43,876 bases of DNA from Nocardia ninae NBRC 108245 (lineage in GTDB: Bacteria; Actinomycetota; Actinomycetes; Mycobacteriales; Mycobacteriaceae), in NCBI RefSeq assembly GCF_007990755.1, contig NZ_BJXA01000076.1, forward strand, positions 1 to 43,876, written 5' to 3'. Both the position numbers and the translations under genes were made by a program. Shown here in pieces: positions 5,451 through 34,041 of the stretch. How positions within the stretch are numbered: position 1 is the stretch's first letter; every line of letters starts with the position of its first letter. Under the pieces are notes generated by a model. It worked only from the letters and a program-made list of their open reading frames with translations, searched no databases and was not told the origin of the DNA.

Positions 5451-5588
5451 GTGAACTATCCACTGGTGGTAGCGCTCGGCGTCCTGCTGCTGTTCGGCAT
5501 CGTCGCGCTGGCGGTCTGGGACGACGTGCGAGACATGGATGAGGACGGTATCCGGCAGACCGACGAGGAGCGGATTGACATCAACTAA
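5451..5588 (+). CDS. Small single-pass membrane protein
   Basis: A 45-codon frame starts at GTG 5451, 8 bases after the hydrolase stop. It encodes VNYPLVVALGVLLLFGIV then ALAVWDD, giving one membrane helix at about residues 4-24. An acidic tail follows, rich in D and E, with DEDGIRQTDEER. The same frame is open far upstream but only this part looks like a protein. The spacing suggests an operon with the hydrolase. No family was recognised. The start has no strong ribosome site, so translation may depend on coupling. Confidence 0.55.
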   Translation: MNYPLVVALGVLLLFGIVALAVWDDVRDMDEDGIRQTDEERIDIN

Positions 5589-5592
5589 CGTT

Positions 5593-5640
5593 TAGGTTGC
5601 ACGCTGGTCACCGAAGCTCGAAGGAGTTCTGACCAGAGGA
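5593..5640 (+). promoter_or_regulatory. Promoter and leader of the first quinone reductase
   Basis: TAGGTT at 5593-5598 is a plausible -10 box. Downstream, CTGGTCA (5604-5610) and TGACCAG (5630-5636) form a 7-bp inverted repeat around 19 bases. The right arm overlaps the ribosome site AGAGGA (5635-5640). The repeat could be an operator or an RNA stem limiting translation. No partner regulator is adjacent. Confidence 0.35.
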
Positions 5641-5646
5641 GTTGCT

Positions 5647-6618
5647 GTGCGCGCCGTAGTCCTGCATTCATTCGGCCCCCCGGAAAACCTGCGCTACGAG
5701 GAGGTTCCCGATCTGAAACCGGGTCCGGGCGAGGTGCGCATCGCCGTCCGGGCAGCCGGTGTGCACCTGATCGAGACGGCGATGCGGGCGGGCCTGGCGA
5801 TCGGCCCACCGCTACCGGAGTTGCCCGCAATTTTCGGCGGCGAGGTCGCGGGTGTCGTCGACGCGATCGGGCCGGATGTGGACTTGTCCTGGCTCGACGC
5901 CGCAGTGGTGACGCCGCGCAGCACCTCCGGCGGTTACGCCGAGTGGGCGATCGCGGAGTTGGCTGCACTGCACCGGATTCCGGACGCTCTGGACCATTCG
6001 ACCGCCGTCGCCATGATCGTCACCGGCACCACCACCGTCGAGGTCCTCGATATCGCCGCGCTGACGTCCGACGACCTGGTCCTGGTGAATTCGGCGGCAG
6101 GCGGGGTCGGCCGATTGATCGTCCAGCACGCCCGCAATATCGGCGCCAGGGTCATCGGCGCGGCCGGCGGAGCGGCCAAAGTCGCTGCGGTGGACGCACT
6201 GGGTGCCGACCTAGCTGTCGACTACAACGAGTCCGACTGGACCGACCAGATCCGGCAGGCGTTCTGCGACCGCGCGGTGACGGTAGTGCTCGACGGTGTG
6301 ATGGGCGAGAAGGGCCGGGCGGCAGTGTCCTTGCTCGCCGAGGGCGGGCGGTACGTCACCTACGGAAACGCCTCCAGGGAGACCTTCGAACCGGACCCGG
6401 AGAAACTGCGGGAACAAGGCATTACGGTGATCGACGCGCTGTCGATCATGCTGAGCCAGCCCCGCGAGGTGCGCGGCGAGGAGTCCCGCGCGCTGGCCGC
6501 GGCCGCCGACGGCACCATGGTGCCGACCGTCCAGACCTTCCCGCTCGACCAAGCGGCGAAAGCACATGCCGCGTTGGAGAATCGGGCGACGACCGGCAAG
6601 GTGGTGCTGATTCCGTAA
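5647..6618 (+). CDS. Zinc-independent alcohol dehydrogenase / NADPH:quinone reductase family protein
   Basis: Medium-chain dehydrogenase/reductase of the quinone-reductase branch, 323 aa, cytoplasmic. The GroES-like N-terminal half has PGPGEVRIAVRAAGV and FGGEVAGVV. The Rossmann half has the NADPH-binding motif AAGGVGR in VLVNSAAGGVGRLIVQHAR. The zinc-binding Cys and His of true alcohol dehydrogenases are absent. It ends in ENRATTGKVVLIP, typical of the family. The GTG start at 5647 is preceded by AGAGGA. It probably reduces quinones or enones; the substrate is unknown. A related paralogue lies at 28557-29531. Confidence 0.88.
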   Translation: MRAVVLHSFGPPENLRYEEVPDLKPGPGEVRIAVRAAGVHLIETAMRAGLAIGPPLPELPAIFGGEVAGVVDAIGPDVDLSWLDAAVVTPRSTSGGYAEWAIAELAALHRIPDALDHSTAVAMIVTGTTTVEVLDIAALTSDDLVLVNSAAGGVGRLIVQHARNIGARVIGAAGGAAKVAAVDALGADLAVDYNESDWTDQIRQAFCDRAVTVVLDGVMGEKGRAAVSLLAEGGRYVTYGNASRETFEPDPEKLREQGITVIDALSIMLSQPREVRGEESRALAAAADGTMVPTVQTFPLDQAAKAHAALENRATTGKVVLIP

Positions 6619-6670
6619 TCCGCCCGGGATTCATGCGGACGTCACCGCCGCGTCGGCGAAGGCGGCCACA

Positions 6671-7744
6671 ATGAGGTGTATGCGTCGAACATCTGTACTC
6701 GGAGTCGCGGCGATCCTGCTGGCCGGTCTGCTGAACGCGGGTGCGGCGTCGGCGGACGTGCCGCCGCGGCAATTCGATCTGCAGGCGCACCGCGGTGGCC
6801 TCGCCCTGGTGGTGGAGAACACCGTGGCCGCCTTCGCGAACGCGTTGGAACTCGGCGTGCGCACGCTGGAGCTGGACGTGCAGATCACCGAGGACGGCTA
6901 CGCGGTGCTCACCCACGATCGGGACCCCAATCCGAACAAGTGCGTCGACACCGCCCCCGCCTTTCTCGGCGATCCCGAGTTCCCGTATGTGCCCGGCACC
7001 AGGTTCATTCGCGACCTGACGTTGGCGCAGGTGCGCACCATCGATTGCGGCTCACTGCGATTGGCGGCTTTCCCCGAACAGCGCACCGTGCCGGGCGCTC
7101 GAATGCCGTTGCTGTCGGAGGTTTTCGATCTCGTGCGTGCCTATCGCGCCGATGAGGTCATGCTGAACATCGAGACCAAGGTGGAGGCGGGCGCGCCGGA
7201 GCAAACCGCACCGCGGGAGCAGTTCGTGCAGGTGGTCGCGGCGGAAGTCCGGCGCGCGCACCTCGAAAACCAGGTCACCATCCAAAGTTTCGACTGGGGT
7301 GCCCTGATGCGGATGCGGGAGGTGGCGCCGGAACTGCCGATCGTCGCGTTGACCAACGGGCAGCAGTTCTTGCAGGCCGACCAACCCGGGGCGTCGCCAT
7401 GGTTGGGCGGCCTCGACATCGATGACTTCCCCGGCTCGCTGCAGCGCAAGTTCGTCAGCGCCGCAGCGTCTTTCGGTGCCGATGCGGTCTCGCCGGTGCA
7501 CGGCGACCCGCAGGACGGCAGCGTCGAGGACCCGGGCTATCGGCCGTTCACGACGCGTGAGCTGGTGCGGGCCGCGCACCGGCAGCAGATGCGAGTGGTG
7601 CCGTGGACGGTCGACGACCGCGCCACCATGATTGCGCTGATCGACCTCGACGTGGACGGCCTCATCACCAACCGCCCGGACCTGTTGCGCACCGTCCTCG
7701 CCGAACGCGGCTACCAGCTACCGAAGGCATATCCGCGCCCCTGA
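6671..7744 (+). CDS. Secreted glycerophosphodiester phosphodiesterase
   Basis: A 357-aa exported GDPD-family TIM-barrel enzyme that hydrolyses glycerophosphodiesters to glycerol-3-phosphate and an alcohol. Residues 1-28 form a signal peptide (MRRTSVLG, a hydrophobic core, then ASA|DVPP). Active-site motifs follow: H40-R41-G, E49-N50-T51, E67-L-D69 and H82-D83. Later motifs are NIETK near the middle and VVPWTVDD plus GLITNRPD near the end. This is the extended secreted type, somewhat longer than cytoplasmic GDPDs. ATG 6671 has GAAGG at 6658-6662; ATG 6680 is an alternative that still leaves a signal peptide. It may scavenge glycerol phosphate from lipids outside the membrane. Confidence 0.9.
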   Translation: MRCMRRTSVLGVAAILLAGLLNAGAASADVPPRQFDLQAHRGGLALVVENTVAAFANALELGVRTLELDVQITEDGYAVLTHDRDPNPNKCVDTAPAFLGDPEFPYVPGTRFIRDLTLAQVRTIDCGSLRLAAFPEQRTVPGARMPLLSEVFDLVRAYRADEVMLNIETKVEAGAPEQTAPREQFVQVVAAEVRRAHLENQVTIQSFDWGALMRMREVAPELPIVALTNGQQFLQADQPGASPWLGGLDIDDFPGSLQRKFVSAAASFGADAVSPVHGDPQDGSVEDPGYRPFTTRELVRAAHRQQMRVVPWTVDDRATMIALIDLDVDGLITNRPDLLRTVLAERGYQLPKAYPRP

Positions 7745-21897: not shown

Positions 21898-23751
21898 GTG
21901 AAGCCGCTCGGGCGACACGATCCGCGCACGGCCGGCCGCCACCGGCTGATCGCGGTCATCGGCCAGGGCGCCATGGGTCGGGTGTTGCTCGGCCGGGCAC
22001 CCGACGGCCGGCTGGTCGCGGTCAAGATGATCCACCGGCATCTCGCCAAGAATCCCGAGTTCCGTGCCCGCTTCCGGCTCGAAGTGCAAGCCTCCCAACG
22101 GGTCACCGGGGCGTACACCGCCGCGGTGATGGACGCGGACCCGGAAGCCGAAGCGCCGTGGCTGGCCTCGGTTTTCGTGCCCGGCCCTTCGCTGCGGGAC
22201 GCCATCGATCAGCACGGCCCGATGTCTCTCGGCGGCCTACGCCTGCTGACCGCGGGCCTCGGCTCCGCCTTGCTGGAGATTCACCGGGCGGGCATGATCC
22301 ATCGCGACCTCAAACCGTCGAATGTTCTTCTCGCGCAGGATGGTCCGCGCGTTATCGATTTCGGCATCGCCCGCGCCTTGGAAGCCGACCTTCAGCTCAC
22401 CAGCACCGGCACCCTCGTCGGCTCGCCGGCTTTCATGTCGCCGGAACAGGCGTCGGGCAACGAACTCAGCACTGCCAGCGACGTTTTCTCGGTCGGCGCG
22501 ATGCTGGTCATGGCGGCGACGGGGGAGAGCCCATTTCTCGGTGCCTCGGCGCCGCAGACCTTGTACAACGTGGTGCACCACCACCCCGACACCAGTCGCG
22601 TGCCTGCGCCTTTGCGCCCCATCGTGGCTGCTTGCCTGGACAAGAACCCCGCACATCGCCCGGCCCCGCGGCAACTGATCGACTCGGTAGCCGACATCAC
22701 CGCCCGGTCCGGCTGGTCCGCCGGGGTGCGGCGGCAGATCACCCAGGACCGGGCGGAAGCCGAGCGTTGGGTAGCGACCGGTGGCGAGGTGCCGGAGCAG
22801 TCGCCGCGCCGGACCGCGAGATGGGTTGCCGCAGCGGCGGTACTGGTCCTGTTGGCTGCCGGGGCCGTCACGACCTTTCTCCTGACCCGCGGCACTACGC
22901 CCGCGCCCGTTGATCCGTTGGCGAATCGCACCCTGGAACTGACCGATGAGCAATTGCGGCTCACCGACACCTGCGCGCTGCTCGGCAACGACGTGGTCGG
23001 GCATCTGGGGCAGCCCGTCAAGCCGGAGCTGACGAATTCGTCGGTCTGTGGCACGAAATTCGTCGAGTCCGGCGGGCGTCGGACGCAGCTGACCGTCGGG
23101 GTCGGTACCGCTTTGTCGGGCGGGAAACCGGTGACCGAACAGATCGCGGGTCGCCCCATGCTGGACACGTCGGTGAGTGCGGATTCATGCGCGCGCGCCA
23201 TCGCGGTACGCGACCAACCGCTACTCGGTGTCGAAGTGAAAATAACTGCGGCAGAAGGAGCGTCCTGTGTGTTGGCAGGGGACGCCTTGAAAGCCGTTGC
23301 AGGCCGGCTGGCGGCAAGTCCACCGAGCGTGCGTTCACCGAAACAGTCTGTCGTCCGGATGGTTCCGTGCGACTCGGTGGCGCAGGATGTGATCGCCGCA
23401 CAAGCAGGTACCGGGGCGGCGCCGGTACCGGTCGACGCGCACACCTGCACCTGGGCGGGCAGTCGCTTCACGATCACCGTGCACACCGCCGAGGGAAAGC
23501 GCGTCGATGTGGACCCGAAGTACACCGGACTGCTGGTGAACGGCGGCACCCTCGGCGACTTCCCGTCGGCGCGCCGCATCGACCCCGACGGCACGTGCGC
23601 GACCTACCACCTGGTCCGGCCGACCATCGAAGACCGAGGAGAACTGATCGCCGTGACCGCGCAACCGACCGGGCCCGGCGCCGCCGAAACCGCCTGTGCC
23701 GCTACCGAGTCAGTGCTCGGTGGCGTCGTGGCCCGACTGAGGAGCTTGTGA
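21898..23751 (+). CDS. Membrane Ser/Thr protein kinase 1 with two-module four-Cys ectodomain
   Basis: A 617-aa receptor-like kinase. The cytoplasmic kinase has the G-loop GQGAMGRV (G22), Lys43, the catalytic H135-R136-D137-L-K, D154-F-G and an SPEQ motif in place of APE. One membrane helix spans about residues 310-329. The outside part has eight Cys arranged as two modules of four, starting with C359 in TCALL. The pattern CALL, C, C, C-helix resembles the lipoproteins at 32948 and 33490. I chose GTG 21898 because GGGGAGG stands just before it; GTG 21844 has no such site. Its TGA overlaps the ATG of kinase 2 as TGATG, so the two are translationally coupled. Confidence 0.92.
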   Translation: MKPLGRHDPRTAGRHRLIAVIGQGAMGRVLLGRAPDGRLVAVKMIHRHLAKNPEFRARFRLEVQASQRVTGAYTAAVMDADPEAEAPWLASVFVPGPSLRDAIDQHGPMSLGGLRLLTAGLGSALLEIHRAGMIHRDLKPSNVLLAQDGPRVIDFGIARALEADLQLTSTGTLVGSPAFMSPEQASGNELSTASDVFSVGAMLVMAATGESPFLGASAPQTLYNVVHHHPDTSRVPAPLRPIVAACLDKNPAHRPAPRQLIDSVADITARSGWSAGVRRQITQDRAEAERWVATGGEVPEQSPRRTARWVAAAAVLVLLAAGAVTTFLLTRGTTPAPVDPLANRTLELTDEQLRLTDTCALLGNDVVGHLGQPVKPELTNSSVCGTKFVESGGRRTQLTVGVGTALSGGKPVTEQIAGRPMLDTSVSADSCARAIAVRDQPLLGVEVKITAAEGASCVLAGDALKAVAGRLAASPPSVRSPKQSVVRMVPCDSVAQDVIAAQAGTGAAPVPVDAHTCTWAGSRFTITVHTAEGKRVDVDPKYTGLLVNGGTLGDFPSARRIDPDGTCATYHLVRPTIEDRGELIAVTAQPTGPGAAETACAATESVLGGVVARLRSL

Positions 23752-25691
23752 TGGTGACACCGCTCGAGCGCGATGAACCCCAGCAGATCGGCCGATACCG
23801 GCTGCTCGGCCAGCTCGGCTCCGGCGGCATGGGGCGGGTGCTGCTCGGCGTCGGCCCGGATGGCCGGCTGGTCGCGATCAAACAGGTGCACCAGCACCTG
23901 GTGACCGAGGAAGACTTCCTGCCGCGGTTCCGCCGCGAGGTGCAGACCTCGATGCAGGTCTCCGGCGCCTTCACCGCCGCGGTGATCGACTTCGACGTCG
24001 AGTCGGAAGAGCCTTGGCTTGCCTCGGTTTTCGTGCCGGGGGTGCCGTTGGACAAGGCCGTCCAGGACTACGGCCCGCTGACCCCGGAAGAAGTGCACAA
24101 GCTGGCGATCGGCCTCGCCTCGGCGCTGCAGGCCATCCATGGCGTCGGCCTGATTCATCGGGATCTGAAGCCCGCCAACGTGATTCTCGCCGAGGACGGC
24201 CCGAGGGTCATCGATTTCGGTATCGCCCGAGCGGTCGAGGGCCGATCCGAGCTCACCCACACCGGTTCGATCATCGGTTCGCCTGCGTTCATGTCCCCGG
24301 AGCAGGCGCAGTCGCTGCCGCTGACCCCGGCCAGCGACATCTTCTCCCTCGGCGCGGTGCTCGCGATGGCGGCGGGCGGCGCGAGTCCCTTCGCAGGCGC
24401 CTCGCTGCCGCACACGCTCTACAACATCGTGCACACCGACCCCGACCTGAGCGGATTGCCGCCCGAGGTCCGGGAATTGGTGGAACCGTGCCTGCGCAAG
24501 GACCCGCAGGAACGCCCGACACCCGCCCAGCTGCTCGACTTCCTCGGGCCGCTGCCACCGCAGCATCGTCCCTGGTCGACACAGGTGCACAAGGCGATCG
24601 GCGCGCAGGAGGCGGAGATGTCGGCGCTGCTGGCCGACCCGGAGGCCACTCAGTTCGTCGGTGCCGCGCCGGCGCCCGTCCCGGCGTCGCACAGCGCCGA
24701 CTTCGAACAGCGCCTGCAAGCGCTCGTCGAGATCCAACGCGCCGGGGTGTTGCACCGGCGTCGGAAGCGGGTGCTGATCGCGGCCGCGGCCGTGGTGGTC
24801 TTGGTTGCCGGTGTCCTGGCCGGTACGGCCCTGTTCGGTGGTGAAGACGAGCGACCGGCCGGCCCGGTGGCGAATCCACTTGCCGCGCTGAATCTTACGA
24901 AGCTCCGGTCGCTGGATGTCTGCGCCGCGGTGCACGAGCCACTGGTCTCCGCGCTGGGTAATTGGACGACGGAGCCGAGCTCCACCCAATGGGGAACGTG
25001 CTCGGGCGAGGCGGACGGGTACCGGTTCGACGTCGACATCAAGCGCATCGAGGGCTATCGCGACAACGGCAAACGTGTTGCGGGAGTGCCGGTCCTGGAG
25101 GACGTGACCAGCGGCGCCGACAGTTGCGGGCGGGCACTGTTCCCCGCGACAACGGACCCGCAGTTCGGGATCGCGGTCCGGGTGCAGGGCGCGCAACCCG
25201 AGGAAAGGTGCGGCGTCGCCGACGACGCGGCCGCGGAGCTGGCCCGCCGGCTGACCGAACGCGCGCCACAGCTTCCGGGCTTGCGCAGCTCACTCGCCCC
25301 GCATGACCCGTGCGCCCTGGTGGATTCCAGCGTCGTCAAGCTGAATATCGGCGAGCAGGTCCGCGGAGCTCCGGATCAACTGCACACCTGCAAGTGGCTC
25401 TCGACCGGCACGGTCACCGTCGCGCTGGAACGCTCGAAGGTGCTGGTGCCGACCGAAAAGCCGATCCCGTTCGATCTCGGTGGCGGCAATATCGTCTTCA
25501 CGGACGAGGCGGACCTGCGATCGCCCACGTGTGAACGGCGCGGTCAGTATCGCGGCATCAACAGCACCGACGCGGAGGTGGTGACCGTGCAGGTGGCGAA
25601 CCCGACGCTCAATGAACGTCCCGAATTCCGATGTCTGACAGCGCAATTGGTGCTGCAGAATGTCCTCGACAACCTCCCCCGGGTGAACTGA
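23751..25691 (+). CDS. Membrane Ser/Thr protein kinase 2 with two-module four-Cys ectodomain
   Basis: A 646-aa paralogue of kinase 1. Kinase motifs are GSGGMGRV, Lys44, H136-R137-D138-LKPAN, D155-F-G and MSPEQ. A longer juxtamembrane part (about residues 275-340) is rich in Ala, Glu and Gln. The membrane helix is at about 341-362 after HRRRKR. The ectodomain again has eight Cys in two four-Cys modules (VCAAV, TCSGE, SCGRA, RCGVA; then PCALV, TCKW, TCERR, RCLTA). Sequence between ectodomains differs much more than between kinase domains, so the two may sense different ligands. Both ends overlap neighbours as TGATG, marking a kinase-kinase-lipoprotein operon. Confidence 0.92.
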   Translation: MVTPLERDEPQQIGRYRLLGQLGSGGMGRVLLGVGPDGRLVAIKQVHQHLVTEEDFLPRFRREVQTSMQVSGAFTAAVIDFDVESEEPWLASVFVPGVPLDKAVQDYGPLTPEEVHKLAIGLASALQAIHGVGLIHRDLKPANVILAEDGPRVIDFGIARAVEGRSELTHTGSIIGSPAFMSPEQAQSLPLTPASDIFSLGAVLAMAAGGASPFAGASLPHTLYNIVHTDPDLSGLPPEVRELVEPCLRKDPQERPTPAQLLDFLGPLPPQHRPWSTQVHKAIGAQEAEMSALLADPEATQFVGAAPAPVPASHSADFEQRLQALVEIQRAGVLHRRRKRVLIAAAAVVVLVAGVLAGTALFGGEDERPAGPVANPLAALNLTKLRSLDVCAAVHEPLVSALGNWTTEPSSTQWGTCSGEADGYRFDVDIKRIEGYRDNGKRVAGVPVLEDVTSGADSCGRALFPATTDPQFGIAVRVQGAQPEERCGVADDAAAELARRLTERAPQLPGLRSSLAPHDPCALVDSSVVKLNIGEQVRGAPDQLHTCKWLSTGTVTVALERSKVLVPTEKPIPFDLGGGNIVFTDEADLRSPTCERRGQYRGINSTDAEVVTVQVANPTLNERPEFRCLTAQLVLQNVLDNLPRVN

Positions 25692-26905
25692 TGAACTGGA
25701 ATCCACGCGCGGTCACGGCCATCCTCGCTGTTCTCGCCGCCGTAGTCGGGGCCGGGGGCTGCGCATCGACGGTGCGCGGCACCGGCGTTTCGGCCGAGAT
25801 CGACGTGCGTTCGCTGGATACGGGCAAGTTCCCGACCACGCCGCCCAAGCTCTCGGCCCGCCTGGACGATGTCGGGTACGCCCGGCTGGAGGCCGCGCGC
25901 ATGGCGGATGCGGTACTGAGTCCGCACGAGGTGGACCCGACATACTCCGCGGGCGCGTCGGCGCTCATGCATACCGATGTCCAGTCGGTGACGCGGTATC
26001 TCGCCGAGCCCACGATTCCGGTCTTGCTGAATCACGGCTTCGTCCTCGGTTTCTCGACTGGTTCGGCCGAGGACGTACTGCCGCTCACCACGGCGGCGGC
26101 CGGTAGTCGCCAGCGCGAGGGTCTCACCGTGACGGTGTTGCGTTTGCGGGATGCGGCGGCGGCGAAGGCCGCGGCAGCCGAACTCGATGCGGTGGATTTC
26201 GCCCTCAATCCGGAAAATGTCGCGGTCAGCCTGCCCAAGTACCCGGACTCGCGGGCCCATTGGCGTCCGTCGGTTCCGACGCTGGGTAGCACGACCGCAC
26301 ACGGGATCTACGTGATCAGTGTGCTCGCGGATTCGCGGACCGCGGATATCAATCGACTGGTCGAGGCGACCCAGAAGTATCTCGATGCCGAGGTGGCCGA
26401 ACTCGACAAGTTCACGCCGACACCGGCCGGAAACTTCAGCACGCTGCACCAGGATCCGGACGGGTTGCTGGCCAGGGTTATCCACGACCAAGGCGTCGTC
26501 GCCGGGCCCGATGGGCAGGGCGAGGTGGTGTTGACGCTGCGCGGCTACCTGAACTACGTGCTGGACCAATCGGGCCGGCTGCCGGTGCTGCGCCGAGCGG
26601 GGGTCGATCGGGTTGCGGTGGCTCCCAGTGCTTTCGGCTTCCGAACCACCGACGACGCCGCCGCGGTGCGATTCGTCGCGGAGTCCGCCGAACTCGGCAA
26701 CCCGGTGGACCGGCGGGCGGTGGATCCCCCGGCGGATGTGCCCGGTGCGTTGTGCGTGCAGGACTATGTCGCGCCGAAGGAAGCGCAGTTCCGCTGCTTT
26801 GTCGCGTACCGCAGATACGCGGCGCTGGTGCTCGGCGCCCGACTATGGGAAACGCAGCAACGGGCGGCCGCGCAATACGCGCTGCTCGCCAACGCCCAGC
26901 GATGA
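25691..26905 (+). CDS. Lipoprotein co-translated with the kinases (DUF7373-like)
   Basis: A 404-aa exported lipoprotein. Residues 1-24 form a signal peptide with a lipobox ending AGGC; the -3 residue is Ala, slightly weak. The mature protein has GTGVSAEIDVRSLDTGKFPTTP near the start, then two alpha/beta domains with LLNHGFVLGFSTGSAEDVLP and RAGVDRVAVAPSAFGFRT. From memory it resembles DUF7373 lipoproteins of Nocardia. Its ATG overlaps the kinase 2 stop, so it is made in step with the kinases. It may lie outside the membrane and help their ectodomains sense a signal; this is inference. It ends 9 bases from the convergent transglycosylase gene. Confidence 0.82.
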   Translation: MNWNPRAVTAILAVLAAVVGAGGCASTVRGTGVSAEIDVRSLDTGKFPTTPPKLSARLDDVGYARLEAARMADAVLSPHEVDPTYSAGASALMHTDVQSVTRYLAEPTIPVLLNHGFVLGFSTGSAEDVLPLTTAAAGSRQREGLTVTVLRLRDAAAAKAAAAELDAVDFALNPENVAVSLPKYPDSRAHWRPSVPTLGSTTAHGIYVISVLADSRTADINRLVEATQKYLDAEVAELDKFTPTPAGNFSTLHQDPDGLLARVIHDQGVVAGPDGQGEVVLTLRGYLNYVLDQSGRLPVLRRAGVDRVAVAPSAFGFRTTDDAAAVRFVAESAELGNPVDRRAVDPPADVPGALCVQDYVAPKEAQFRCFVAYRRYAALVLGARLWETQQRAAAQYALLANAQR

Positions 26906-26914
26906 GCGGGACCG

Positions 26915-28036
26915 TCAGTAGCCGCGGTAGGCGCCACCCGATTCGACGGCCACCACGCCGGGCACATTCTTGACCGATCCGTACGTATCGATCGAGTAGC
27001 GGACGCCGGCGATGATGTTGTCCACCGGATTCCAGATATCGTCGTGCCCCGGTGCCTTGTAGGCGTTGAAGGTGCTGTCGATGGTCTGCATCAGCCCCTT
27101 CGACGGGTGCCCCGCCAGCCAGTTGCTGTCCCAACGGTTTTCCGCATAGGGGTTACCCGCTGATTCGTGCTGGATGATCATGGCGATGGCCCGCTCATCG
27201 ATATCCTTGGGGTCGTAGCCCATTTCGATGAGTTTCTGTTTCGCCTCCGCGATCCATTTCGCCATATCGCCGCTCGGCAACGGCCCAGTCGGCGCGCTCG
27301 AGCTCCCCGAATAGCTTCCGGTGTACGGGCTGCCGGCGGACGACCCGGAATTGCTGTTGTTCCCCATCGCGTAACTCGGCTTGTTGGACGAAGGGCTACT
27401 GCTGACCGGAGTCGGCGCCGCGACGCTGGCGGGTGCGGTATTCACCGGTGGCGCCACATTCGTGGCGGGCTCGCCGAGTCCACCGAACGCCTGCTCCAAT
27501 TTGCGTACCGCCGCATCGACCTGTGTCTTCGCCTGGTTGGCAACGGTTTCCGCGGTTTTCAGCGCATTGGTCAGTTCCCAGGTCCGAGTCGCCGCCTGCA
27601 GCGACTCCTGGAAAATGAGTCCCTCTACGTTCGCCTTGTCCGAATGCTCGCGCAGCGCCGCGATCCGGGTCGTCGCATTGACGGTGCCGTTCGGCTCCAC
27701 ATCGAATGGGGGTGCCTGATTGACGGCGTCATCGCGGAGTTGCAGCACCTTGGTTTTCGCTTCGACCAGGTTCTGCGTCTGAGAGGTGAAGGCTGTCTTC
27801 AATTCCAGCAGCGCGGCACTGACCGGTGAGGCCTTGGTCTTCTCGGTGTCCATGCGCGCGTTCGCGGCGGCCCCGGCCGTACCGGACCATTTCTTGCCGT
27901 CTTCCAGCGATTTCGTCTGACTGGCACCCTTGCCGACGGCGGCATCCAGGCCCTGCGAGACGGTCCCCGCGTGTTCGCCTGCGGCGGTGAGCTGTTCGGG
28001 TTTCCAGTTCTCCACGTCAGGGATGGTGAGGGTCAT
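26915..28036 (-). CDS. WXG-like domain fused to a lytic transglycosylase (type VII secreted wall enzyme)
   Basis: A 373-aa protein. Residues 1-180 are all-helical with W50-S-G52 in GKKWSGTAG, like WXG100/EspB-type T7SS substrates. Residues 185-255 are a Pro/Ser/Gly-rich linker. Residues 256-373 are an SLT domain with the catalytic Glu291 in IIQHESAGNPYAENR and the motif GLMQTIDSTFNAY. There is no Sec signal peptide, so export would be through type VII secretion. ATG 28036 overlaps the stop of the EspC-like gene as ATGA, so the two are coupled and may be exported as a pair. It would cleave peptidoglycan. Its neighbour across the stop is the kinase operon. Confidence 0.9.
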   Translation of the reverse strand: MTLTIPDVENWKPEQLTAAGEHAGTVSQGLDAAVGKGASQTKSLEDGKKWSGTAGAAANARMDTEKTKASPVSAALLELKTAFTSQTQNLVEAKTKVLQLRDDAVNQAPPFDVEPNGTVNATTRIAALREHSDKANVEGLIFQESLQAATRTWELTNALKTAETVANQAKTQVDAAVRKLEQAFGGLGEPATNVAPPVNTAPASVAAPTPVSSSPSSNKPSYAMGNNSNSGSSAGSPYTGSYSGSSSAPTGPLPSGDMAKWIAEAKQKLIEMGYDPKDIDERAIAMIIQHESAGNPYAENRWDSNWLAGHPSKGLMQTIDSTFNAYKAPGHDDIWNPVDNIIAGVRYSIDTYGSVKNVPGVVAVESGGAYRGY

Positions 28037-28356
28037 GGCAGTCCGATCGCGCGCAGCTTCGCGGTGAAGTCGTCCTCGGCCAGTTCGTATTTCCCTGCAG
28101 CATTGTGCATATTGTCGGCGATGGTGGTCAGTCGATTGCCGATCCGTTGCAGGCACCGGTTGACCACATCGTTCGCCTGCTGTGCCGCGGTACCGAATTC
28201 GGTACCGGGTAGCGCCGTGGCCGCGGCGGTGAACGCGCCCCCCGCGTTGAGCCCGGTCACCTCGCCCGCCTCGGTGCCGAGGGTTTGCGCGAAGGACCGC
28301 AGTGCGTCCGGATCGACCTGCACGCTCGTCGACGATGGTTGATTGCGCTCGACCAT
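28033..28356 (-). CDS. EspC-family (T7SS target) small protein
   Basis: A 107-aa helical-hairpin protein of the EspC/WXG100-like family. VQVDPDALRSFAQTLGTEAGEV opens it and YELAEDDF near the C-terminus carries a Y90xxxE94 signal, the YxxxD/E type used by type VII secretion. ATG 28356 follows a G-rich site (GGGGG). It overlaps the transglycosylase gene by 4 bases. EspC-like proteins usually pair with a larger partner for export, here most likely the WXG-transglycosylase. No T7SS machinery genes are in the window. Confidence 0.87.
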   Translation of the reverse strand: MVERNQPSSTSVQVDPDALRSFAQTLGTEAGEVTGLNAGGAFTAAATALPGTEFGTAAQQANDVVNRCLQRIGNRLTTIADNMHNAAGKYELAEDDFTAKLRAIGLP

Positions 28357-28556
28357 GAGTCCCCCTTCACGCCCGACCATAGGTCGCGGTCAGCATAGCA
28401 AAACGGGGTCTGCGGAACAGGGCGTCGAGCAGGTCGTGGCAGTCGCGCGCGGCGGCGCGACGCGGGCAGGGTGCGCACGGCGCGGCGACGCGGGTTACGT
28501 TGATCACGGCGGCGCCGGCGCGGACGAGGCCGGTGCCACGACAGAGAGGTCGGCAG

Positions 28557-29531
28557 ATGCGCGCAGCCCAGGTCAGCAAGCTGGAGGGACCGGAGTCGGT
28601 CGAGATCGTGGACATCCCGGAGCCCAAGTCGTATCCGGGTGGCGTGGTGATCGACGTGCACGCCGCCGGTGTCGCGTTCCCGGACGTGCTGATGTCGCGC
28701 GGGCTGTACCAGATGAAGCCGGAGCTGCCGTTCGTCGTCGGTGGCGAGGTCGCGGGCATCGTGCGCGAAGCGCCGGCCGACGCGCACGTCAAGGCCGGCG
28801 ACCGGGTGGTCGCGCTGACGTTGCTCGGCAATGCCATGGCCGAGACGGCCGTCGCGCCCGCGCAGATGGTGTTCCCGTTGCCAGACAACGTCTCCCTGGA
28901 GTCCGGGGCAGGCATCCTGTTCAACGATCTGACGGTGCACTTCTGCCTGCGCAACCGCGGCAGGCTCGCCGCGGGCGAGACGGTGCTCGTGCACGGCGCC
29001 GCGGGCGGCATCGGCACCTCGACGCTGCGGATGGCCACCGCGCTCGGCGCGGGCCGGGTGATCGCGGTGGTCAGCACCGAGGCGAAGGCGGAGGTGGCCC
29101 GCGCGAACGGCGCCACCGACGTGGTGCTGGCCGAGGGCTGGCTCGCGGCGGTCAAGGAACTGACCGGCGGTCGCGGCGTGGACATCGTGCTCGATCCGGT
29201 CGGCGGCGACCGCTTCACCGACAGCGTCCGCTCGCTCGCGTCGGCGGGCCGCCTGCTGGTGGTCGGCTTCACCGCGGGTGAGATCCCCACCGTGAAGGTG
29301 AACCGGCTGCTGCTGAAGAACGTCGAGGTGATCGGCGCGGCCTGGGGTGAATGGGTGATGACGCACCCGGGCTACCTGACCGAGCAGTGGGCCGAGGTGG
29401 CGCCGCTGCTGGCCGCGGGCAAGATCGCCGCACCCGAGCCGGTGCTCTACCCGCTGGACCGGGCGGCCGAGGCGATCGCCTCGCTGGAGAACCGGACGGC
29501 GACCGGCAAGGTCGTGGTCACGCTGCGCTGA
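28557..29531 (+). CDS. NADPH:quinone oxidoreductase family protein
   Basis: A 324-aa zinc-independent medium-chain reductase. GroES-like half: MRAAQVSKLEGPESVEIVD and PFVVGGEVAGIV. Rossmann half: VLVHGAAGGIGTSTLRMAT for NADPH and VDIVLDPVGGDRF. It ends ENRTATGKVVVTL, like the paralogue at 5647. ATG 28557 follows GAGGT; upstream the frame is open but lacks homology. It is divergent from the EspC-like gene, and 15 bases before the AlkZ-like gene, with which it is probably co-transcribed. The substrate is unknown. Confidence 0.9.
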   Translation: MRAAQVSKLEGPESVEIVDIPEPKSYPGGVVIDVHAAGVAFPDVLMSRGLYQMKPELPFVVGGEVAGIVREAPADAHVKAGDRVVALTLLGNAMAETAVAPAQMVFPLPDNVSLESGAGILFNDLTVHFCLRNRGRLAAGETVLVHGAAGGIGTSTLRMATALGAGRVIAVVSTEAKAEVARANGATDVVLAEGWLAAVKELTGGRGVDIVLDPVGGDRFTDSVRSLASAGRLLVVGFTAGEIPTVKVNRLLLKNVEVIGAAWGEWVMTHPGYLTEQWAEVAPLLAAGKIAAPEPVLYPLDRAAEAIASLENRTATGKVVVTLR

Positions 29532-29546
29532 GGCGAGCGAATCGTG

Positions 29547-30656
29547 ATGCTCTCCGACCGGATACTGAACCGCACGCTGCTCGCCCGCCAGCATCTGCTG
29601 GAACGCTCGCAGCTCACCGTGCACGAGATGTGCGATCACCTCGTCGGTCTGCAAGCACAGGACTCGCCGCCGCCGTTCGTCGCATTGTGGAGTCGCATAG
29701 CGGATTTCGATCCCGCGACAATCTCGAACGCGCTGGAGGATCGGACGCTCGCCCGAATCACCTTGATGCGCGGCACTATTCACATGGTGACCCCGCCGGA
29801 CGCGCTGCGGATCGCGCCGCTGATGCAGCCGGAGCTGGAAAAGATCCCCTTCCGAAAGGGTTTCAACTACGGCGCGCTGGTCGGACTCGACCCCGACGAG
29901 GTGCGCGCGCACGGCGAGCGGGTGCTCGGCGACGAACCGATGTCCGCCGCCGATCTGCGACTGCACGCCGCCGAGTGCTACCCGGACCGCAATCCCGGCA
30001 TGGTCGTGCAGGCCTGGCTCATCCTGCTGCCGGTGCTGCAGACCCCGCCGCGCGGCAAGTGGAAGGAAAGCAGCAGGCCGGTCTGGTCCCGGGTCGAGCC
30101 GTGGCTCGGCGCACCGCTCGACCCGTCCTATCCGTTGGCGGAGTTACTGCTTCGGTACCTGCGCGCCTTCGGTCCGGCGTCCACCATGGACATGCAGACC
30201 TGGTCGAAGCTGCTCGGCATGAAGCAGGCGATCGCCCAGCTCGGCGACCGGGTGCGCACCTACACCGACGAGCGCGGCCGCACCCTCTACGACGCCGCCG
30301 ACGGCGAGCTCGCCGATCCGGAACTCCCGGCACCGGTGCGCCTGCTCGGCTGGTACGACAATGCCCTGCTCTCGCACCAGGATCGGAGCAGGATCGTGCC
30401 GGACGGCGCGGCGCCACCGCTGCGCGCCTTCGCCGCCGCGGTCGCCCCGGTGCTGGTCGACGGCTACCTCGCCGGTCTCTACAAGATCTTCCCGGAGTCC
30501 GGCGCGGCGCGCCTGCGGATCAGCCCCACCCGAAAGTGGACCAAGGCCGAGCGCGCGGCGGTGGAAGCGGAATCGCATGCCCTGCTCGCCTTTCTGGAGG
30601 CGGACAAGGAACCGCGGGTCGAGATCCTGGAGGTGGGCGCCGACGTGCGGCCCTGA
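29547..30656 (+). CDS. Winged-helix AlkZ-like (HTH_42) DNA glycosylase-family protein
   Basis: A 369-aa protein of the HTH_42/AlkZ-YcaQ superfamily. The catalytic-type motif Q36-A-Q38 is in CDHLVGLQAQD, matching the QxQ motif of AlkZ, an enzyme that removes bulky and cross-linked purine adducts in antibiotic producers. Later family motifs include TLMRGTIHMVTP, RAFGPAS and the middle WYDNALLSHQDRSR. ATG 29547 was chosen; GTG 29544 adds one residue. Many family members in actinobacteria are uncharacterised and may have other roles. It follows the quinone reductase closely on the same strand, so the pair may be induced together. Confidence 0.83.
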   Translation: MLSDRILNRTLLARQHLLERSQLTVHEMCDHLVGLQAQDSPPPFVALWSRIADFDPATISNALEDRTLARITLMRGTIHMVTPPDALRIAPLMQPELEKIPFRKGFNYGALVGLDPDEVRAHGERVLGDEPMSAADLRLHAAECYPDRNPGMVVQAWLILLPVLQTPPRGKWKESSRPVWSRVEPWLGAPLDPSYPLAELLLRYLRAFGPASTMDMQTWSKLLGMKQAIAQLGDRVRTYTDERGRTLYDAADGELADPELPAPVRLLGWYDNALLSHQDRSRIVPDGAAPPLRAFAAAVAPVLVDGYLAGLYKIFPESGAARLRISPTRKWTKAERAAVEAESHALLAFLEADKEPRVEILEVGADVRP

Positions 30657-32947: not shown

Positions 32948-33475
32948 ATGCGGATCAAGTCGGCGATCGTCACGGGCACGGTCTTCGCGCTGTTGCTGTC
33001 CGCGTGCGGATCGCGCGGCGACTCGGACACCTCGAACACGCCGCTGCGGCCGCCGCCGAAGGTCGCCACGCTCGGCCCGTTCGTCGGCGAGTGCGGGCAC
33101 GCCACCGACGACGAGGTGCGTGATCTCGCGGGGCTCGGCCAGATCTCCCAGGCGCTGAAGAATTCGGTCGGCTGCAATTGGCAGTCCGCCGGATTGGGTT
33201 CGCCCAGCGTAACTTTCGCGTCGTATCGGGGCAGCCCGATCGACCGCGAGAAGGCGTGGGTGACCACCCAGGGGCGGACCACCCAGGCGATCGAAGTCGG
33301 CGGCCGCACCGGCTGGCAGGCGCTCGAGCCGGACAGCAAGGTCTGCGACCTCGCCGTGCAGCTCGACGACGACTTCTTCGAATGGTCGATGTCCTACGGC
33401 ATGTTCGCGCCCGACGGCAACCCGTGCGACCGGATGCACAAGCTGGCGGAGCTGACCGTGCGGCGGCTGAAGTGA
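32948..33475 (+). CDS. Four-Cys lipoprotein, DUF3558-like (copy 1)
   Basis: A 175-aa lipoprotein. Lipobox LLLSACGS near residue 20. The mature part has four Cys: ECGHATDDEV, GCNWQSA, VCDLAVQ and PCDRMHKLAELTVRRL. This C, CxW, C, C-helix layout is the DUF3558-like module. The protein is anchored on the outer face of the membrane. The next gene, 14 bases on, has the same architecture. The function of the family is unknown. The same module appears twice in each kinase ectodomain at 22-25.7 kb. Confidence 0.85.
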   Translation: MRIKSAIVTGTVFALLLSACGSRGDSDTSNTPLRPPPKVATLGPFVGECGHATDDEVRDLAGLGQISQALKNSVGCNWQSAGLGSPSVTFASYRGSPIDREKAWVTTQGRTTQAIEVGGRTGWQALEPDSKVCDLAVQLDDDFFEWSMSYGMFAPDGNPCDRMHKLAELTVRRLK

Positions 33476-33489
33476 GGGGGAGGACGGCA

Positions 33490-34041
33490 ATGCAGCTTCG
33501 TCGCGCTCGCGCCATACTCACGGCGGCCGCTGTCTCGGCCCTCGCGGTGACCGTCGCGGGTTGCGGTCAGACGGTGAGCGGTTCGGCACATCCCGCCGGT
33601 TCGGGGACCGGGGAGTCGGTGAACACCAACTTCGACAAGCTGTTGCGCGAATGCGACATCGTCTCGCTGAACCAGGTCGGCGACGCGGTGAGCCAGGGCG
33701 CCATGGCGATGCAGTCCTTCTACGGCGCGGTGTGCATGTGGGACGTGCAGGGTTCGAGCAGCGCCATGGTCACCCTGAACTGGTACGAGATCGGCTCGCT
33801 GAACAACGAGAAGACCACCAACGACAAGTTGGGTTACCTGACCAACAACATCACCGTGCAGGGGCGGCGCGGGCTGGAGACGCGGCGGCCGAACGATCCG
33901 GACTCCTGTGGCGTCAGCGCGGGGGCCGCGGATCAAGGTGTGATCGGGTTCTGGATCAACTATCGGCCCGGCTCGGCGCACCCGGATCCGTGCGCGGGCG
34001 CCAAGAAACTCGTAGAGTTGACGCTGAACCTGGCCAGGTAG
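33490..34041 (+). CDS. Four-Cys lipoprotein, DUF3558-like (copy 2)
   Basis: A 183-aa lipoprotein in an operon with the previous gene. The lipobox is VAGCGQ near residue 25, followed by TVSGSAHP, a common start in actinobacterial lipoproteins. The four mature Cys are in RECDIVSLNQVGDAV, VCMWDVQG, SCGVSAG and PCAGAKKLVELTLNLA. A strong GGGAGG precedes ATG 33490. Identity with copy 1 is low outside the Cys frame, so they are old paralogues. It is followed by the rpsL promoter region. Confidence 0.87.
   Translation: MQLRRARAILTAAAVSALAVTVAGCGQTVSGSAHPAGSGTGESVNTNFDKLLRECDIVSLNQVGDAVSQGAMAMQSFYGAVCMWDVQGSSSAMVTLNWYEIGSLNNEKTTNDKLGYLTNNITVQGRRGLETRRPNDPDSCGVSAGAADQGVIGFWINYRPGSAHPDPCAGAKKLVELTLNLAR

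Follow-up and report, generated by a model that had tools for sequence, protein, structure and literature searches.

The window, the whole stretch of 43,876 nucleotides from Nocardia ninae NBRC 108245 (contig NZ_BJXA01000076.1) that was analysed, contains a row of three genes. Two receptor Ser/Thr kinases, k1 and k2, are followed by a DUF7373 protein, and two free DUF3558 lipoproteins are encoded downstream. The features are as follows.

21898..23751, + strand, k1, type I receptor Ser/Thr kinase (617 aa, GTG start; open reading frame, Pkinase 130 bits)
21952..22683, + strand, k1 kinase domain, residues 19-262 (Pfam PF00069)
22825..22884, + strand, k1 transmembrane helix, about residues 310-329 (hydropathy maximum 2.47; boundary approximate)
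22951..23331, + strand, k1 module A with C359, C384, C431 and C457 (profile comparison with DUF3558 and module B; boundaries approximate)
23344..23748, + strand, k1 module B with C491, C517, C567 and C600 (profile comparison with DUF3558)
23751..25691, + strand, k2, type II receptor Ser/Thr kinase (646 aa, ATG start; open reading frame, Pkinase 136 bits)
23796..24536, + strand, k2 kinase domain (Pfam PF00069)
24771..24830, + strand, k2 transmembrane helix, about residues 341-360 (hydropathy maximum 2.61; boundary approximate)
24897..25271, + strand, k2 module A with C391, C417, C459 and C487 (profile comparison; boundaries approximate)
25287..25688, + strand, k2 module B with C521, C547, C594 and C628 (profile comparison)
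25691..26905, + strand, DUF7373 protein, probable lipoprotein (lipobox-like AGGC, by eye), third gene of the row (PF24088 184.6 bits, PF24092 108.2 bits)
32948..33475, + strand, free single-module DUF3558 lipoprotein, module homologue (PF12079 115.1 bits)
33490..34041, + strand, free single-module DUF3558 lipoprotein, module homologue (PF12079 115.2 bits)

Both kinases belong to the transmembrane receptors of the Hanks type; k1 represents one old paralogous type and k2 another. In each, a hydropathy peak (2.47 in k1, 2.61 in k2) follows the kinase domain and marks a membrane-spanning helix that separates it from the ectodomain. Both retain the catalytic Lys, HRD-Asp, Asn and DFG-Asp, the four residues that were checked. 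The k1 stop and k2 start overlap in the letters TGATG, as do the k2 stop and the start of the DUF7373 gene.

The original prediction gave each kinase exactly eight ectodomain Cys in two sets of four. This count was confirmed in k1 (359, 384, 431, 457 and 491, 517, 567, 600) and k2 (391, 417, 459, 487 and 521, 547, 594, 628), with one further Cys in each located within the kinase domain. The Cys contexts it quoted for the lipoproteins at 32948 and 33490 were also recovered; each has a lipobox Cys plus the four quoted. Kinase-motif picks from 40 Nocardia loci (L046-L085) and the window comprised 67 receptor ORFs, a 68th (L062_10150) being left out for want of a transmembrane segment. Eight ectodomain Cys were present in 66/67, and the remaining ORF is a single module with four. 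This pattern is more than chance.

In a larger set, 162 distinct double-module proteins passed a screen for coverage, which dropped frames with partial coverage or two overlapping receptors. Eight Cys were found in 157 and nine in five, the extra one being located ahead of the modules, in the transmembrane segment or lipobox (by eye), so that all 162 have eight module Cys. Because the screen required both modules to be covered, it missed lipoproteins with a decayed second module and six Cys. Among 21 complete double-module frames, excluding three cut by locus ends (L259|1641, L262|2 and L266|1552), nine lack C7 and C8 jointly, and these nine are Nocardia lipoproteins with six Cys. Loss of exactly this pair points to disulphides inside one module, and C1-C2 and C3-C4 bonds probably close each module internally. 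The original prediction had named pairing across the halves as evidence against itself; natural variation in Cys content favors the prediction. Free DUF3558 modules have five Cys, lipobox Cys included, in 40/42 cases, and the two L228 proteins have twelve after the lipobox.

Homology of the ectodomain halves to DUF3558 (PF12079) had to be sought by profile. The window ectodomains gave no domain match of any kind in Pfam or NCBIfam and no PDB sequence match. k1 and k2 produced no PF12079 row in Pfam at E up to 1 and so fall below its curated cut-off of 34.1 bits. Searches for a solved relative returned none for the lipoprotein at 33490 or query A1, and one chance row (E 1.9) for A2. Using hhalign, the profile-profile check proposed with the original prediction came out in its favor for both halves. 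A lipoprotein-only DUF3558 profile matched receptor module B with 97.8% probability and module A with 94.8% (97.1% and 85.6% with a smaller sequence set), and reversed-profile controls reached at most 0.4%. With Cys masked, kinase module B matched DUF3558 at 94.2% and kinase A matched kinase B at 95.1%. The masked A half dropped to 17.9% against DUF3558 (9.0% with the smaller set), so the direct link of A to DUF3558 leans on Cys and on intermediates.

Three of nine proteins scanned have both Pkinase and DUF3558 above the Pfam cut-offs: L084 (DUF3558 65.8 bits, one module), L131 (42.4) and L133 (38.7). Other scanned kinases fell below the DUF3558 cut-off (18.6, 30.8 and 26.9 bits; L168, 28.3), and the L192 kinase had no DUF3558 match in the Pfam scan. 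The single-module lipoproteins L222, L223, L225 and L226 (PF12079 at 51-82 bits) hit the receptor profile in its B half (E 1.8e-8 to 1.3e-10). The double-module lipoproteins L144 and L179 contain two PF12079 stretches each, and L144 matches the receptor profile over positions 11-275 (1.9e-51). At E < 1e-3, an HMM built from DUF3558 lipoproteins alone detected a domain in just 16/68 kinase ORFs and two domains in none. The window halves scored 2.0 to 10.5 bits with it, and the best Cys-fixed shuffle 9.6 (1320 made, 1224 scored). Chance or Cys-only matching as the cause was tested by these shuffles, Cys masking and reversed profiles, and was rejected. Like the DUF3558 lipoproteins, the window modules have four Cys in the same order, and the lipoproteins align collinearly to each receptor half. 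They differ in that the window's DUF3558 lipoproteins are free, lipid-anchored and single-module, while the receptor ectodomains lie below Pfam detection. By profile and intermediates, then, both halves are supported as distant DUF3558-type modules, module A more weakly when Cys are masked.

The original prediction went on to propose that a DUF3558-like module was doubled and placed on a kinase. Homology of the halves to DUF3558 and to each other stands, but the doubling did not arise for kinases. Free double-module lipoproteins, recognized by a lipobox pattern and without a kinase, occur in 17/29 loci (L144-L172). They are found in Nocardia and in family f14 of the same order, have A and B in the same order and mostly eight Cys, and differ from the receptors in having a lipobox where those have a kinase and transmembrane helix, and in that nine from Nocardia have six Cys. 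The kinase A and B halves are closest to their A and B halves, respectively. Doubling is therefore not special to kinases. No published name was found for these lipoproteins.

The window's two DUF3558 lipoproteins were considered as operon partners of the receptors and rejected as unlikely. Genomes G002, G005 and G007 have a tandem DUF3558 pair, one member of which is 62-66% identical to the window's second lipoprotein, and no receptor match with either query. Since tandem pairs with the orthologue of the second stand in receptor-free genomes, the pair at 32948 and 33490 is probably not the partner.

The DUF7373 lipoprotein at 25691 appears the likelier partner, judging by gene order. A DUF7373 gene adjoins the receptors in 38/40 Nocardia loci; outside the genus, 14 genomes with receptors yielded no DUF7373. 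The receptors split into two clades, type I (k1) and type II (k2), which co-occur, variously ordered, in 32/40 Nocardia loci. All 23 receptor-receptor junctions examined allow a stop/start overlap. DUF7373 accompanies a lone type I receptor in four loci, and type I stands with two DUF7373 genes in one. These five loci, with type I but no type II beside DUF7373, indicate that the pair is not always needed. L070 has an in-frame stop and contributes no classed receptor to the locus counts.

Our preferred explanation, held with moderate confidence, is that type I and type II receptors with doubled DUF3558-type modules act jointly at the cell surface and probably form a heteromer. The DUF7373 lipoprotein from the same gene row would be their extracytoplasmic partner or ligand carrier. 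The doubled module would act as the sensor: once it bound a ligand or the lipoprotein, the kinase domains inside the cell would come together, and this association would switch on autophosphorylation.

Alternatively, k1 and k2 could be two independent homodimeric receptors that arose by an old duplication, bind different ligands and stay adjacent through shared transcription, with DUF7373 a co-transcribed envelope protein. The intact catalytic residues of both kinases and the five loci without type II agree with this. Retention of both types in 32/40 loci despite several gene orders argues against it, as does a dead type II copy with an eight-Cys ectodomain in the row in ten of those 32 loci, and we think it unlikely. 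These dead copies emerged from an alignment check of 123 kinases, of which 10 lacked all four catalytic residues and 6 lacked one; L133, among the six, is a cut alignment. The ten loci add a type II pseudokinase whose eight-Cys ectodomain is kept, a third receptor that would act as a pseudokinase co-receptor. That Nocardia assembles multi-part surface receptors from type I, type II and DUF7373, with a pseudokinase co-receptor in ten loci, is tentative and somewhat doubtful. If true, it would parallel, in bacteria, the receptor systems of animals and plants that couple live with dead kinases.

A rather improbable reading is that the ectodomains bind no diffusible ligand but serve as envelope anchors or scaffolds, positioning the kinases at cell-wall sites while the lipoproteins act as structural partners. 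The same double module does occur free of a kinase in the 17 loci above, and no enzymatic or transport family matched it in Pfam or NCBIfam. Strong paralogue divergence (ectodomain identity to k1 is 19-27% for 54/65 other receptor ectodomains) fits varied partners better than a single scaffold, a weak argument. Convergence of the eight-Cys pattern in halves unrelated to DUF3558 is hardly credible: the missing direct Pfam match and the weakened A half fit it, but the Cys-masked B-DUF3558 and A-B matches, the three kinases above the Pfam cut-off, and L144 and L179 all contradict it.

A kinase sensor closed by two disulphides and shared with lipoproteins is already known. The extracellular domain of Mycobacterium tuberculosis PknH, described as having two internal disulphides, belongs to the PknH_C family PF14032, reported also in the lipoproteins LpqQ, LprH, LppH and LpqA and in secreted Rv3705c (PMC4118811, PMC3601408). 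As described there, PknH resembles k1 and k2 in being a receptor Ser/Thr kinase with a lipoprotein-shared extracellular domain (PMC4118811, PMC3601408). It differs in that neither a doubled module nor a I/II pair with a lipoprotein gene is seen in the available portions of those accounts (PMC4118811, PMC3601408). PknH_C was rejected as the ectodomain family: its profile is unrelated by sequence to that of the module (hhalign at most 1.3%), and none of the window proteins matched it in Pfam. Nor did PknH_C match in the window's own genome. The doubled DUF3558-type version is a new variant; no published description was found of a receptor kinase with such a sensor.

In what could be consulted of it, a 2012 review states that the mechanisms and signals of receptor kinases are not fully clarified (PMC3601408). 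The present finding ties DUF3558, a lipoprotein family without an assigned function, to kinase ectodomains, names the DUF7373 lipoprotein as a likely receptor partner and brings out a pseudokinase form of the receptor. Should the free and the kinase-borne module share a ligand class, a ligand identified for one would be informative about the other. The sensing question can be tested, since the module, the kinase pair and the lipoprotein lend themselves to separate deletion or expression. The PASTA kinases PknB and PrkC, and PknD, are likewise receptor kinases of the Hanks type that carry their sensor outside the cell, as outlined in the review; unlike k1 and k2, PknB and PrkC have PASTA repeats there, which also repeat a single module, and PknD a beta-propeller (PMC3601408).

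The two receptor Ser/Thr kinases, k1 (type I) and k2 (type II), lie in the following gene row.

21898-23751, k1, receptor kinase, in tandem with k2
23751-25691, k2, receptor kinase, in tandem with k1 and followed by the DUF7373 gene
25691-26905, DUF7373 gene, 3' of k2
26918-28156, minus strand, protein with a transglycosylase SLT domain (46.6 bits), close 3' of the kinase row and convergent with it
28260-29966, minus strand, 569-amino acid frame without a Pfam match at E up to 0.001

Using the predicted starts, both the k1/k2 and the k2/DUF7373 junction are overlaps of the form TGATG, which suggests translational coupling of all three genes. The original prediction of eight cysteines per kinase ectodomain, in two sets of four, was borne out by the cysteine positions in k1 and k2. 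The halves are referred to as modules A (C1-C4) and B (C5-C8). Relatives of the k1 ectodomain occur in N. tenerifensis (71%), N. altamirensis (70%) and N. suismassiliense (29%). The closest relative of k2 is in genome G079 (locus L065), with a module that is 98% identical; at the place of k1 this locus has only a 156-amino acid frame matching the receptor profile.

The window's two free lipoproteins (32948-33475 and 33490-34041) are members of the DUF3558 family (PF12079), and the k1 and k2 ectodomains had no match in Pfam or NCBIfam. A DUF3558 profile was built from 42 lipoprotein modules and zero kinases, then compared with the receptor halves using hhalign, in which each E-value stands for one single comparison. 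With a set of 66 receptors, the B half gave 97.1% (E 6.9e-11) and the A half 85.6% (E 5.5e-6). A larger set, 123 kinases plus 39 other double-module proteins, gave 94.8% for kinase A, 97.8% for kinase B, 95.7% for lipoprotein A and 97.1% for lipoprotein B. With the cysteines masked these values became 17.9%, 94.2%, 48.4% and 88.7%, respectively; in the smaller set masking gave 88.0% for B, 9.0% for A and 73.0% for A against B. Reversed-profile controls reached at most 0.4%. The profile of PknH_C (PF14032), the extracellular domain family of M. tuberculosis PknH, gave at most 1.3% against the module halves. Searched as an ordinary HMM, the lipoprotein profile found a domain at E < 1e-3 in 16/68 kinase ORFs and two domains in 0/68; the window halves scored 2.0 to 10.5 bits and the best shuffle 9.6. 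Because this search was weak, the direct argument for k1 and k2 rests on the profile-profile comparison, for which hhalign served, and on intermediates. Both uphold the proposal that the ectodomain halves are homologous to DUF3558, and the module is almost certainly of DUF3558 type.

Judged by sequence, the intermediates settle this homology. A one-module kinase in genome G006, in tandem with a two-module receptor, matched Pkinase at 115.6 bits and DUF3558 at 65.8 bits (cut-off 34.1). Both families were also matched in L131, from another family of the order (DUF3558 42.4 bits), and in L133, from Nocardia (38.7 bits), each with two DUF3558 stretches counted at E up to 0.1. Three further kinases among the nine proteins scanned were below the DUF3558 cut-off (18.6, 30.8 and 26.9 bits), as was kinase L168 (28.3 bits), and L192 had no DUF3558 row in the Pfam scan. 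The double-module lipoproteins L144 and L179 matched DUF3558 at 55.3 and 40.5 bits, with two stretches apiece, and L144 matched positions 11-275 of the receptor profile (1.9e-51). PF12079 recognised four single-module lipoproteins (L222, L223, L225 and L226) at 51-82 bits, and their matches to the receptor profile, at E 1.8e-8 to 1.3e-10, fell in its B half.

One minus-strand frame (L135:5579-8095) matches PrsW protease (114.8 bits) and DUF3558 (34.8 bits, barely above cut-off), and the kinase family weakly (26.0 bits, below cut-off). Here the DUF3558-type module may serve a further kind of membrane protein. Locus L136 of genome G003 has several double-module DUF3558-type lipoprotein frames on both strands of one small region.

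The eight module cysteines are present in 162/162 doubled proteins passing the coverage screen. Twenty further Nocardia places (receptor-profile matches in frames of ~320-430 amino acids) were surveyed together with L215, on contig C18 of the N. ninae genome. Among these 21 complete double-module frames, 18 had a lipobox by pattern, 12 had eight cysteines and nine had six. All nine six-cysteine proteins (L215, L250, L252-L255, L259, L262 and L266) lacked C7 and C8 and kept C5 and C6; L259 has one extra cysteine, four residues after the lipobox cysteine. The nine are probably related by descent, so the loss of C7 and C8 perhaps represents few events. This pattern fits predicted pairs C5-C6 and C7-C8 within one module. 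Pairing across the halves had been named as an outcome that would count against the two-module reading, and the joint absence of C7 and C8 speaks against such pairing. Two neighbouring lipobox proteins (L228:3626-5473 and 5563-7278) have twelve cysteines after the lipobox, by eye three sets of four. Their third module has little profile support, with a partial DUF3558 match in one, and the first protein has no Pfam row.

The top hhalign scores linked like halves: 99.5% (E 2.5e-22) between the A modules of kinases and lipoproteins, and 99.8% (E 1.1e-28) between their B modules. The four A-to-B comparisons scored lower (96.5-98.3%). These profiles make most likely a single origin of the doubled unit and its use in free lipoproteins as well as in kinase ectodomains. 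The original prediction that the receptors were built by doubling therefore holds for the doubled module itself but not as a kinase-only event, since free double-module lipoproteins have the same A and B halves. A quick tree of the 162 doubled modules required 3 kinase/lipoprotein changes, and well supported branches force only one.

All distribution counts are lower bounds, with 8 to 26 candidates scored per genome in the profile searches. The k1 ectodomain query identified 37/98 Nocardia genomes (E up to 0.001). The receptor profile, whose counts include lipoproteins and single modules, identified 53/96 Nocardia genomes (E up to 1e-6), 38/200 genomes of the order in 15/60 genera (E up to 0.001), and 2/296 genomes in a phylum sample, N. 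ninae being one (E up to 1e-6).

The gene-order survey covered 40 Nocardia loci whose receptors were classed, namely the window and 39 of L046-L085 (without L070); some genomes contributed more than one. In 38/40 loci the receptors have a DUF7373 gene no more than 300 bases away, measured between stop-to-stop frames. The orders were I-II-DUF7373 (12), II-DUF7373-I-II with an altered last kinase (10), DUF7373-I-II (7), DUF7373-I with an altered kinase (4) and seven others found once each. Both receptor types are present in 32/40 loci. All 23/23 receptor-receptor junctions examined permit a stop/start overlap, by eye TGATG (12), TAATG (1), ATGA (9) or GTGA (1). DUF7373 was not found in 14 receptor-profile genomes outside Nocardia by a search that did detect it in N. 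ninae, so its pairing with the receptors is, as far as tested, a Nocardia feature. N. ninae has six DUF7373 genes, one in the window row; five DUF7373 matches lie close together on contig C32 (36600-43890).

No paper on DUF3558 was found in the open-access literature, the only match being, by title and abstract, on a mouse Polycomb protein, and none was found there for PF12079 or DUF7373. Nor did this system appear, by title and abstract start, among the open-access papers listed on PknH lipoproteins or the PknH sensor domain, actinobacterial pseudokinases with an extracellular domain, or Nocardia threonine kinase/lipoprotein operons. PknH provides a precedent, as part of PMC4118811 describes a sensor domain, with two disulphides and a cleft, common to the kinase and to lipoproteins; a passage in PMC3601408 gives the regulatory molecules of PknH as unknown. 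We lean slightly towards type I, type II and DUF7373 being a co-working set. Analogy with receptor kinases suggests that the most likely mode would be binding of a ligand and then association of the kinases.

Live and dead receptor kinases occur together in animals and plants. In the ten II-DUF7373-I-II loci (L057, L062, L068, L073, L076 and L078-L082), the last receptor lacks all four catalytic residues checked by alignment (Lys, HRD-Asp, Asn and DFG-Asp; 10/123 kinases) and keeps the eight-cysteine ectodomain. These ten form one clade in the quick tree (SH-aLRT 98). The type I receptor of L085 had also been flagged as altered, which the alignment check did not confirm. The type I receptors of the four DUF7373-I loci and of L074 (together L064, L069, L072, L074 and L075) have HRN or HRR for HRD, with no type II in the fetched stretch; each is beside a DUF7373 gene, which in L074 is on the opposite strand.
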